In this document: piece by piece, positions 852 through 12,821 of the stretch | Numbering within the stretch: position 1 is the stretch's first letter | Layout of the letters: each line of letters begins with the position of its first letter | DNA from: a virus | Reading direction: 5' to 3' (one strand) | Length of the DNA: 24,050 bases | IMG/VR virus record: IMGVR_UViG_3300007345_000274 | Location: 1-24,050 of that record | Position numbers and translations under genes: made by a program | Notes under the pieces: generated by a model | Seen by the model: the letters and a program-made list of their open reading frames with translations, nothing else | Told to the model about the DNA's origin: nothing | Databases searched by the model: none

Positions 852-2420
852 ATGGCCGCACGTGACGATCGTTTGCTCGAATTCGCAACAGAGCGCCAGG
901 CTCAGTATCTGGAAGCCATCTGGCAAGAGGGCAGCATTCGGGCGGCGGCTCGCCAGCTTGGCGTGAACTTCAACGCTGTGCACAAGGGCTATCAGGCTGT
1001 GCTGCGCAAGGCTGGCTCGCCGGCTGAAGTGGTGCCAGTCGAGGCGAACGCGCAGACCTACGTCATAACGTCGGCCGTTAATGCCACGAAGGCACATGCC
1101 GGGTTTCTCCGCACGCTGCAGCTCTATTGCTCCCTGCGTGGCGCCAGGCTGATGGTCATTCCGCTCCGGTACCAGAACCCGACCAACCGCGACGCAAAGC
1201 GAGATAACGAGTGGTGGGATTCTCGACTGGTGCCTTACCTCGTTAGCGAGCGGACAAAGATCGCCCGCGACCTGATCGTGCTGGCAGACATCAAGACTCA
1301 GCCGACCGCCGTCAATCCGCTGCAGAAGTGGCAGACGGTGACCGGTACCGCTTCGGCCATCATTGGGCACCCGAAGATCGCACTGAAGACCGTAGCCACG
1401 AACCCTGGTGTGCCGGCCAAGCTGGTGATGAGCACCGGCGCGTGCACCGTCGAGAACTACAGCGACACCAACGCGGGCGCCTCGGGCAAGTTCCATCACA
1501 CGCTTGGCGCGGTAGTGGTCGAAGTGGATGGCCCGCGCACGCACATACGCCATATCTGCCCGATGCGTGATGGCAGCTTCATTGACCTGGCCACCAAGTA
1601 CACCGTGAAGGGCGCTGAGCCTGCTCCACGTGCTGATGGGCTGACCATGGGCGACATCCATGCAGAGCTGGCTTCTCCGATTGTTACGCAGGCCACCAAG
1701 GAGCTTGCCGAACTGATCCGCCCTAAGGTGCTCGTTCTGCATGACGTGCTGAACTTTGGGTCCGCCAGCCATCACGCGAAGTTCTTCGAGAAGTTTCGCC
1801 GGCACGTGAGCGGTACCAGCGGCGTGCTGCATGAGCTGAAAGTCACCGCCCGCCATATCGACCTACTGTCCGGGCTTGCCGATAAGACGGTGATGGTCAA
1901 CTCGAACCACCACGACCACTTCACGCAATGGCTCGAGAAGGCAGAGCACGCCCTCGACATGGAAAACACTCTGGTCTTTCACGAGACCAAGGCCGCCATG
2001 CTCCGGGCTATTCATGAGGGCAGCTACTGCGACCCGTTCCAATACTGGATGGACAAGCTGATGAAGCACGGCGACCGCCTGCTGTGGCTGAAGCCGGGCG
2101 AGTCGTTCATGCGTCACGGTATAGAGCATGGTTGGCACGGCCACAAAGGGCCTAATGGGGTCCGCGGATCAACCAAGAGTTTCGCCACCATCGGCGCCAA
2201 GGTCGTGAAAGGCCATTCCCACGGCGCAGAGATCATCGACGGGGCGCGCTCAGTCGGTACCAGTTCACTTATGGACATGGGCTACAACACCGACAGCCCG
2301 AGCGGATGGACCTGGACCCACGACATCACTTACGCCAACGGCAAGCAGACGCTCATTCATTGCGTCGGCGGCCGGTTCTTTCGCAGCGATGCAGCTATGA
2401 CCAAGGAGTTCGCAGCATGA
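852..2420 (+). CDS. HTH plus calcineurin-like metallophosphoesterase, T5 A1-like
   Basis: This 522-aa protein is assigned the ATG at 852, which sits just behind GGGGGAGA; an upstream in-frame start at 813 lies inside the previous gene. Residues about 8-55 form a helix-turn-helix (ATERQAQYLEAIWQEG, then AAARQLGVNFNAVHKGYQAV) like those in terminase small subunits. The rest carries metallophosphoesterase metal motifs in order: D268-I-H270, H297-D298, N352-H353 within VNSNHHDHF, and G454-H-S-H457. Overall it resembles phage proteins annotated as A1-like, after the T5 first-step-transfer protein A1. The likely activity is metal-dependent phosphodiesterase or DNase, with the HTH giving DNA binding. 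Its role in this phage is not known. The stop overlaps the next ATG (ATGA). Confidence 0.8.
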   Translation: MAARDDRLLEFATERQAQYLEAIWQEGSIRAAARQLGVNFNAVHKGYQAVLRKAGSPAEVVPVEANAQTYVITSAVNATKAHAGFLRTLQLYCSLRGARLMVIPLRYQNPTNRDAKRDNEWWDSRLVPYLVSERTKIARDLIVLADIKTQPTAVNPLQKWQTVTGTASAIIGHPKIALKTVATNPGVPAKLVMSTGACTVENYSDTNAGASGKFHHTLGAVVVEVDGPRTHIRHICPMRDGSFIDLATKYTVKGAEPAPRADGLTMGDIHAELASPIVTQATKELAELIRPKVLVLHDVLNFGSASHHAKFFEKFRRHVSGTSGVLHELKVTARHIDLLSGLADKTVMVNSNHHDHFTQWLEKAEHALDMENTLVFHETKAAMLRAIHEGSYCDPFQYWMDKLMKHGDRLLWLKPGESFMRHGIEHGWHGHKGPNGVRGSTKSFATIGAKVVKGHSHGAEIIDGARSVGTSSLMDMGYNTDSPSGWTWTHDITYANGKQTLIHCVGGRFFRSDAAMTKEFAA

Positions 2421-2959: not shown

Positions 2960-2967
2960 GGTATAAT
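2939..2967 (+). promoter_or_regulatory. Candidate promoter for the HNH cassette
   Basis: A perfect -10 hexamer TATAAT lies at 2962-2967, directly after the preceding gene's stop. The best -35 at 17-bp spacing is the weak CTGATT (2939-2944). A start site 7 bases beyond the -10 would fall at 2974, next to the first base of stem P1 of the leader RNA (2975). That agreement supports the call. The second cassette shows the same arrangement. Confidence 0.55.
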
Positions 2968-2974
2968 CGCCATG

Positions 2975-3060
2975 CGTGGCTAGGCTTAGCGGCTGAAAAG
3001 GAGTTGTCTCACTCCCTGCCACGTCCTCACCTGAGACGCATCGAATAGGAGACGTTCGAT
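2975..3060 (+). promoter_or_regulatory. Candidate cis-regulatory leader RNA, copy A (three-way junction plus SD hairpin)
   Basis: Folding by eye gives P1 2975-2980/3018-3023 (CGUGGC/GCCACG), P2 2983-2985/2992-2994 and P3 3000-3004/3011-3015 (GGAGU/ACUCC, loop UGUCUC). The joints are UA, GAAAA and CU. A separate hairpin, 3040-3045/3055-3060 (AUCGAA/UUCGAU), ends directly at the ATG and holds AGGAG in its loop. The P3 loop (3005-3010) is complementary to SD-loop bases 3049-3054 (GAGACG, with one G-U pair). A second GAGACG lies at 3033-3038. The same architecture with compensatory changes recurs at 12418-12499, so the structure is supported by covariation rather than by folding alone. Expected function: control of translation start of the HNH gene. 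Confidence 0.75.
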
Positions 3061-3585
3061 ATGCTCACTCAAGAGCGACTGAAAGAAGTTCTGCACTACA
3101 ACAAGCACGTTGGCGTTTTCACGTGGCGGGACAAGTCCAATCCCAGGACATACGGCAAAACTGCCGGTGTTGTGAATCGTGGGCGTGGATACATTACGAT
3201 CGGCATCGATTACGAGCACTACACCGCACACCATCTCGTCTGGCTTTGGCATCACGGCTATATGCCTGCAGGACAGATCGACCACATAGATGGTGACCGC
3301 TCAAACAACCTGCTGAGCAACCTGCGCGAAGTGTCGCAGGAGCAGAACTCAATGAATATGAAGCGCAACGCACTCAACACCAGCGGAGTGAAGGGCGTCC
3401 ATTGGGACAATCAGAGGAAGCGCTGGGTTGCGGTGATAAAGAACAAGGAGCAGTACCTGTTCCGCAAGGCCTTCAAAAATCTTGAGGACGCAGAGCGAGA
3501 GATAAAGGCCGCTCGTGAAGCCTTGCATGGAGAGTTCACGAATCATGGCGTGCATCGGTACGAACTCGAAGAAGCGCTTGACTAG
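3061..3585 (+). CDS. Free-standing HNH homing endonuclease with C-terminal AP2-like domain
   Basis: A 174-aa protein. The N-terminal half carries an HNH_3-type nuclease: H57/H58 (AHHLVW), then D74-H75 (QIDHIDGD), N82/N83 and N87 (NNLLSNLREV). The C-terminal part (about 108-150, SGVKGVHWDNQRKRWVA) is an AP2/ERF-like DNA-binding domain, the usual partner in phage homing endonucleases. It probably cuts a cognate intron-less or HNH-less site in related phages and spreads by repair. The ATG at 3061 follows the SD hairpin directly, 9 bases after AGGAG. With its own promoter, leader and terminator it is a moron-like insertion between the early/middle genes and the late block. Confidence 0.9.
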   Translation: MLTQERLKEVLHYNKHVGVFTWRDKSNPRTYGKTAGVVNRGRGYITIGIDYEHYTAHHLVWLWHHGYMPAGQIDHIDGDRSNNLLSNLREVSQEQNSMNMKRNALNTSGVKGVHWDNQRKRWVAVIKNKEQYLFRKAFKNLEDAEREIKAAREALHGEFTNHGVHRYELEEALD

Positions 3586-3708: not shown

Positions 3709-3736
3709 AAACCCGGCCTAACCGCTGGGTTTTTTT
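3709..3736 (+). terminator. Intrinsic terminator after the HNH cassette
   Basis: AAACCC (3709-3714) pairs with GGGTTT (3727-3732), with a further GC/GC pairing inside, followed by an uninterrupted T-run to 3736. This is a canonical rho-independent terminator that closes the HNH transcript. Confidence 0.85.
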
Positions 3737-3839
3737 ATGCGCGAACGGTTCGACAAGGGCTCACCTACCCAGCGCACCAATTCAACACATCCGCCATGCC
3801 TCTGCCTGCATGCACAAATCGCGCGGATTTTCATTACAA

Positions 3840-12403: not shown

Positions 12404-12412
12404 TGTTATGTT
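12404..12412 (+). promoter_or_regulatory. Candidate extended -10 promoter for the second cassette
   Basis: TGT at 12404-12406 and TATGTT at 12407-12412 form an extended -10 (TGnTATnnT). No -35 is evident, as is common for this promoter type. A start 6-7 bases on falls at 12418-12419, the first base of P1 of the leader RNA, matching the geometry at 2962. Confidence 0.45.
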
Positions 12413-12417
12413 TCGTT

Positions 12418-12499
12418 TGCGGCTAGGGTAGCTCCCGAAAAGCGATTACCTCATCGCCTGCCGCATCCTATATAGAGGCATCGAAGCGAGGTATTCGAT
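12418..12499 (+). promoter_or_regulatory. Candidate cis-regulatory leader RNA, copy B
   Basis: It has the same architecture as the leader at 2975. P1 is 12418-12423/12460-12465 (UGCGGC/GCCGCA), P2 is 12426-12428/12434-12436 (GGG/CCC, loop UAGCU) and P3 is 12442-12446/12453-12457 (GCGAU/AUCGC, loop UACCUC). The joints UA, GAAAA and CU are identical. The SD hairpin AUCGAA/UUCGAU (12480-12485/12494-12499) abuts the ATG. SD-loop bases GAGGUA (12488-12493) are perfectly complementary to the P3 loop (12447-12452). A near copy, GAGGCA, lies at 12475-12480. Against copy A, two P1 pairs, one P2 pair, three P3 pairs and three loop-loop pairs change while keeping pairing. Confidence 0.75.
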
Positions 12500-12769
12500 A
12501 TGAGCGACAAAATGCGAGAAGAGTTTGAGGCGGCATATCAAGCCGAGAGTGACGGCAGAGGGAAGTTTCAGCCGGCGCCGTTCACAACCTACCCGGATGG
12601 CGCCTATGCAATTCCGATGGTGGATATGGCTTGGTGGGCATGGCAAGCATCCCGCGCTGCGCTGCTGATTGAGCTGCCCCGTGATGACGTATATTGCGAC
12701 GATGAAGCCATAGCCGCACTGAACGACTGCCGCGAAGCCATCGAAACCGCAGGCGTGAAGTGCACCTAA
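12500..12769 (+). CDS. 89-aa accessory (moron) protein, unknown function
   Basis: A small acidic protein with an N-terminal MREEFEAAY helix and a WWAWQASRAALLIELP segment. This WxAWQASRAA pattern recurs in many small early/moron proteins of enterobacterial and Pseudomonas phages whose function is unknown. There is no signal peptide, membrane segment or metal motif; three Cys lie in the last third. It is carried in its own transcription unit within the head-tail genes. Unlike those genes it is unlikely to be structural; expression in the prophage state or early in infection is plausible. The start follows the SD hairpin directly. Confidence 0.75.
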   Translation: MSDKMREEFEAAYQAESDGRGKFQPAPFTTYPDGAYAIPMVDMAWWAWQASRAALLIELPRDDVYCDDEAIAALNDCREAIETAGVKCT

Positions 12770-12790
12770 CCTAAACAGCAAGACCCAAGA

Positions 12791-12811
12791 CCCAGCCAAG
12801 TGCTGGGTTTT
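12791..12811 (+). terminator. Intrinsic terminator after the 89-aa gene
   Basis: CCCAGC (12791-12796) pairs with GCTGGG (12802-12807) around a 5-base loop and is followed by TTTT and more T-rich sequence. This is a good rho-independent terminator for the cassette. Confidence 0.8.
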
Positions 12812-12821
12812 CACATTTTAG

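Follow-up and report, generated by a model that had tools for sequence, protein, structure and literature searches.

Two leader elements in the viral sequence

The window analysed here is a stretch of 24,050 nucleotides from a virus (IMG/VR record IMGVR_UViG_3300007345_000274, positions 1 to 24,050), in which two unrelated genes, one for a homing-type endonuclease and the other for a small phage protein of unassigned function, are each preceded by a structured leader (Table 1). In both leaders, a stem (P1) encloses two hairpins (P2 and P3) with the joints UA, GAAAA and CU, and this three-way junction is followed by an AUCGAA...UUCGAU hairpin ending at the ATG, an arrangement that the original prediction had described and that the sequence confirms. 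The terminal hairpin carries the SD. A Pfam search of the product of the second gene gave no match. Since each of the two genes precedes a terminator-like hairpin with a T run (3714–3736 and 12784–12812, + strand, recognised by eye), both units, consisting of promoter, leader, ORF and terminator, look like morons at the level of sequence.

Table 1. Positions of the features of both leaders and of the genes behind them (coordinates of the window).
Feature	Position	Strand	Basis or remark
Copy 1, -10 box TATAAT (perfect)	2962–2967	+	Sequence; predicted transcription start, 5' end of P1
Copy 1, int-alpA three-way junction	2973–3026	+	RF02996, 36.5 bits; own model R1, 50.1 bits
Copy 1, stems	P1 2974–2980/3018–3024; P2 2983–2994; J23 GAAAA 2995–2999; P3 3000–3015	+	
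Copy 1, P3 loop UUGUCUCA	3004–3011	+	Complementary to sites 1 and 2
Copy 1, site 1 UGAGACG	3032–3038	+	Duplex with P3 loop, -8.3 kcal/mol
Copy 1, SD hairpin AUCGAA/UUCGAU	3040–3060	+	Sequence
Copy 1, site 2 GAGACG	3049–3054	+	Overlaps SD AGGAG (3047–3051); duplex -7.9 kcal/mol
Gene behind copy 1: HNH_3 + AP2 endonuclease, homing type	3061–3585	+	Pfam HNH_3 6.8e-16, AP2 3.5e-4
Copy 2, -10-like box TATGTT	12407–12412	+	Sequence
Copy 2, int-alpA three-way junction	12416–12468	+	RF02996, 44.9 bits; own model R1, 60.7 bits
Copy 2, stems	P1 12418–12423/12460–12465; P2 12426–12436; J23 12437–12441; P3 12442–12457	+	
Copy 2, P3 loop UUACCUCA	12446–12453	+	
Copy 2, site 1 GAGG	12475–12478	+	Duplex -6.3 kcal/mol
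Copy 2, SD hairpin AUCGAA/UUCGAU	12480–12499	+	Site 2 GAGGUA (12488–12493), duplex -9.0 kcal/mol
Gene behind copy 2: 89-aa phage protein, phrog_343, function not assigned	12500–12769	+	phrog_343 8.5e-20 for the matching protein of locus L002

Assignment to the int-alpA family

The original prediction had regarded the leaders as a new-looking RNA family in which no known one was recognised, and had proposed a comparison with Rfam. This comparison returned an existing family, int-alpA (RF02996), which in a scan of the window with lax filters matched 12416–12478 with 44.9 bits and 2973–3038 with 36.5 bits, both above the gathering score of 35.8 bits; a new family is thereby ruled out. The default fast Rfam run reports only the match at 12416–12478, copy 1 being dropped by the fast filters. 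Pseudomonas phage PS-1 has a counterpart of copy 1 located 5' of the same HNH gene, and this reaches 45.5 bits. Together with the enclosing P1, P2 and P3, the conserved CUAG, GAAAAG and CCUG by which an int-alpA RNA is recognised are present, and both leaders belong to this already catalogued family. Its name, which we take to come from a location between integrase and alpA-like genes, was not treated as defining the RNA, and neither window copy is placed between such genes.

The Rfam model has the same P1/P2/P3 arrangement and conserved junction as the window copies and stops about 14 nt past P1, so that it includes site 1 at most, and neither the SD hairpin nor site 2 (both sites are described below). 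Rfam types int-alpA as “sRNA”, whereas the window elements read as cis leaders. In the searchable full-text literature, no study of the function of an int-alpA RNA was found, only one paper mentioning its presence in genomes.

Conservation of the fold among relatives

Folded as single sequences, the window leaders are unremarkable, their stability not exceeding that of shuffled sequence (z -0.54 and -0.67); folding stability is thus uninformative here, and the structural case rests on comparison. The two-sided changes between the copies that had been proposed as evidence of an RNA structure hold on direct reading: U-A/C-G and C-G/U-A in P1, C-G/G-C in P2, and G-C/C-G, A-U/G-C and G-C/A-U in P3. 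For relatives, a search pattern was built from the conserved core, with no constraint on the loop, the sites or the downstream sequence. At least 120 stretches were matched in viral contigs, and likewise at least 120 with a variant of the pattern; bacterial genomes also gave at least 120, part of them by chance. Among 64 relatives, 86.7% of the pair cells pair, 211 pair cells are changed on both sides (75 in shuffles), and the covariation score is 0.504, against 0.124 for shuffled sequence and at most 0.11 for slid structures. Covariation in homologs, which the original prediction had set as a test, is therefore strong.

A covariance model built from the 64 cores (R1) finds both window copies (Table 1). 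Of 50 records searched over their full length, it recovers one copy in 38 and two in seven, 45 records in all. All 15 divergent loci tested exceed the Rfam cut-off for RF02996, including loci in assemblies of Chloroflexota, Nitrospirae, Hydrogenedentota and Brocadiia, although single assemblies may be bin-contaminated. One 6.3 kb contig labelled Brocadiia (L326) holds three int-alpA leaders, at 802, 3172 and 5612 on the minus strand. Two of them have an identical P3 loop and identical sites, one preceding a YhcG-type nuclease gene and the other an ORF that by eye resembles DUF1016.

One loop complementary to two downstream sites

Two stretches upstream of the start codon are complementary to the P3 loop, a feature absent from the original prediction. 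The complementarity was evaluated with 132 distinct loops from phage, satellite and bacterial sequence, the null being obtained by swapping loops between leaders, which preserves composition and SD content. For the best site, loops paired with their own leaders gave 15.34 versus 10.86 (sd 0.20) after swapping (z 22.7), and for the second site 12.82 versus 8.61 (sd 0.18; z 23.7). The signal is found in either half of the leader taken alone (distal half, z 19.8), as well as in the last 19 nt alone (z 17.1), and it persists when the set is thinned to 27 dissimilar leaders (z 8.9 and 9.3 for the best and second sites). The negative controls were flat: the P2 loop against the leader (z 1.3), by which this loop is discarded as a second antisense loop, the region 5' of P1 as target (z -0.7) and the first 40 nt of the ORF as target (z 1.1). 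The loops differ strongly between loci, with 52 distinct 4-base cores, and both sites change along with them.

Of 130 leaders, 117 have two strong sites, and in 126 at least three loop bases are common to the two, so that pairing with one site precludes pairing with the other because the same bases are needed. The boundaries of the sites are approximate, since they were located by complementarity search, and the contacts span 5–8 bp. Site 1 starts 9–16 nt past the P1-closing triplet (5–95% range; median 12) and about 26 nt 5' of the start codon; the length of P3 and that of the linker are not correlated (0.09). Site 2 starts at about -12, inside the small SD hairpin, and shares bases with the SD in 112 of the 130 leaders. 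Across the relatives, the SD hairpins score 11.7 versus 9.3 (sd 0.19) in dinucleotide shuffles. The median energies, calculated for simple duplexes and thus excluding the cost of a pseudoknot or kissing geometry, are -8.1 and -7.8 kcal/mol for the two sites; in 79 of 130 leaders the two energies lie within 2 kcal/mol of each other. Site 1 is the stronger in 80 of 130 leaders and site 2 in 36. About 10% of the leaders have no convincing second site, and one group (L136) combines a strong site 1 with a weak site 2. What appears to be new for int-alpA is the presence of a second site, of an SD hairpin and of competition between the pairings.

Genomic setting and exchange of the genes behind the leader

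In numerous phages and satellites, the element is found directly 5' of genes that have little in common, its 3' end lying nearly always at the start codon, often with a -10-like box on its 5' side. TATAAT-like boxes are enriched at positions 12–19 nt 5' of the P1-closing triplet, where about 73 occur and about 18 are expected from background, consistent with a transcript starting at P1. Every parsed element with downstream sequence precedes a gene start, with the exception of two apparently spurious matches (an assessment made partly by eye). Behind 104 different elements, the commonest class of gene codes for HNH_3 endonucleases (16); the others include genes for phage integrases and DUF1376 replication-type proteins (five each), DUF6387 proteins (three), GIY-YIG proteins (two) and single defence candidates.

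In two sets of related elements, the leader is kept and the gene behind it exchanged: the sequences are homologous as far as the start codon, leader included, then diverge into an unrelated gene of about 0.7–1.1 kb, and are homologous again beyond it. Between the loci L136 and L149, it is the leader itself that is conserved, with unlike flanks. In E. coli satellites, the element lies between the integrase and a helix-turn-helix regulator, 5' of a variable gene. An apparent BREX operon behind a leader in E. coli Ec1120 was not counted, as this leader is interrupted after site 1 by IS-like sequence. The original proposal, that of a portable element controlling the translation of accessory genes, thus stands as regards portability, the nature of the element as a leader and its association with accessory genes; as to translational control, the site overlapping the SD is what suggests it at the sequence level.

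Relation to known leader RNAs

The nearest functional analogue of int-alpA is the C4 RNA (RF01695; c4 of phage P1 and CI RNA of phage P4), even though it constitutes another family. Like int-alpA, C4 is a leader RNA of phages and satellites with a stem enclosing two hairpins, and its variable loops are complementary to sites including a ribosome-binding site; in contrast, C4 employs two loops (a' and b'), and int-alpA one loop against two downstream sites. The C4 covariance model, which finds phages P1 and P4 at 68.8 and 74.9 bits, has no match in the window at E values up to 5. Membership in C4 was rejected on this basis, on the assignment to a different Rfam family and clan, and on the restriction of the complementarity to the P3 loop, as opposed to the two loops that define C4.

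Translation of ColIb-P9 repZ is set by the pairing of a leader hairpin loop with sequence just 5' of the SD. The position of the pairing is alike in int-alpA; however, the pseudoknot of the repZ leader is an activating one, the antisense RNA is a separate molecule, and we know of no second competing site in this leader. RNA structure also limits the translation of the phage homing endonuclease genes I-TevI and Aeh1 mobE (PMC3014915), a likeness to the reading of int-alpA proposed here, although the SD-sequestering structures described there are simple hairpins with neither a three-way junction nor a competing pairing.

A putative two-state switch and its alternatives

On these comparisons, we consider it fairly probable that int-alpA acts as a cis-acting translational switch, forming the 5' leader of the accessory phage gene that follows and adopting two exclusive states. 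Transcription would probably begin at the base of P1, and the conserved three-way junction would present the P3 loop, which could then form either a pseudoknot with site 1, in the spacer about 12 nt past P1, or a kissing pair with site 2, which the SD hairpin carries in its loop. Two exclusive states are predicted because both sites use the same loop bases with similar energies. Pairing of P3 with site 2 would block the SD and keep translation low, and its pairing with site 1 would release the SD hairpin and permit translation. This direction is suggested by the overlap of site 2 with the SD. The balance may be set by the order of folding, by processing of the RNA or by a ligand of the junction. 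The family, the fold, the two complementary sites with their common bases, the fixed spacing, the SD overlap and the place before gene starts are established by sequence statistics; that the states control translation, in which direction and upon which trigger, we infer.

The main rival is a processed RNA acting in trans in the manner of C4/CI, which we regard as unlikely. The junction would be cut or terminated off within the linker 3' of P1, and the freed P3 loop would repress the SD of its own and other copies, providing dosage control or immunity between related elements. The linker is indeed U-rich and G-poor (T 0.41, G 0.07), and processing or termination could take place there; the sRNA type given in Rfam and the strong variation of the P3 loops between loci also fit. 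In phages P1 and P4, C4 is an antisense RNA that derives from a leader and has targets near the ribosome-binding site (PMC5320573). A trans-acting RNA would, however, require neither site 1 nor its tight spacing from the junction, the contacts are short, and a gene start follows practically every element; this constant spacing and the regular presence of a gene start favour action in cis. In addition, a duplex between the copy 1 loop and the site 1 belonging to copy 2 is possible (-7.7 kcal/mol), so that the two copies are not cleanly separate. Separate pairing codes within a genome were unusable as evidence for trans action, given that only seven of 50 records have two copies, that the window copies could cross-pair at one site and that two of the L326 copies have the same loop; a loop common to copies is expected if specificity between copies is not needed.

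An improbable alternative takes the pairing of P3 with site 1 for an activating pseudoknot beside the 30S site, as in ColIb-P9 repZ, with the likeness of site 2 being a by-product or of minor importance. The fixed distance of site 1 from the start codon and its being more often the stronger of the two agree with such an enhancer, but site 2 is independently supported by the last 19 nt of the leader and lies in a conserved hairpin. Very improbable is a role at the DNA level, in which the loop and both sites would be operator or recombination sites with no RNA contacts: three related short repeats at regular spacing and the end of gene exchange at the leader would fit, yet the stems covary as RNA, the repeats comprise just 5–8 bases that differ between related genes, and it is always the P3 loop, part of a conserved RNA fold, that contains the complement.

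Under the favoured cis switch, the int-alpA family gains a concrete and falsifiable mechanism, namely one loop with two 6-base sites, which suggests how phages and satellites may swap accessory genes, those for endonucleases among them, while promoter and leader stay fixed and expression does not run out of control. A broader generalisation is put forward tentatively: int-alpA may be a widespread two-state leader of mobile accessory genes, in which the one loop presented by a conserved three-way junction pairs either with a decoy in the spacer or with the ribosome-binding site by a freely changing pairing code, within a fixed expression cassette with swapped cargo, possibly driven by a junction ligand. 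The element is also offered as a marker for accessory-gene slots in unannotated phages.

Further observations

At one locus (L411, about 931–986, minus strand), an int-alpA leader lies 5' of an ORF starting MLKAFKFRLYPTKAQA, which by eye resembles the start of TnpB. At another (L022, 1883–2892, plus strand), the leader and a NUMOD4-HNH gene are directly followed by a match to a group I intron (RF00028, 73.1 bits). Finally, an element resembling abiF RNA is present in the window (3790–3828, + strand), in phage PS-1 (NC_029066, 21019–21057) and in a further record (G017:C1:16584–16622), with 30.6–31.0 bits to RF03085, below the cut-off of 37, and E values of about 1e-5 per record. In none of four records searched was an Abi_2 gene found, and the element may be an orphan or may serve as a decoy for a host AbiF system.
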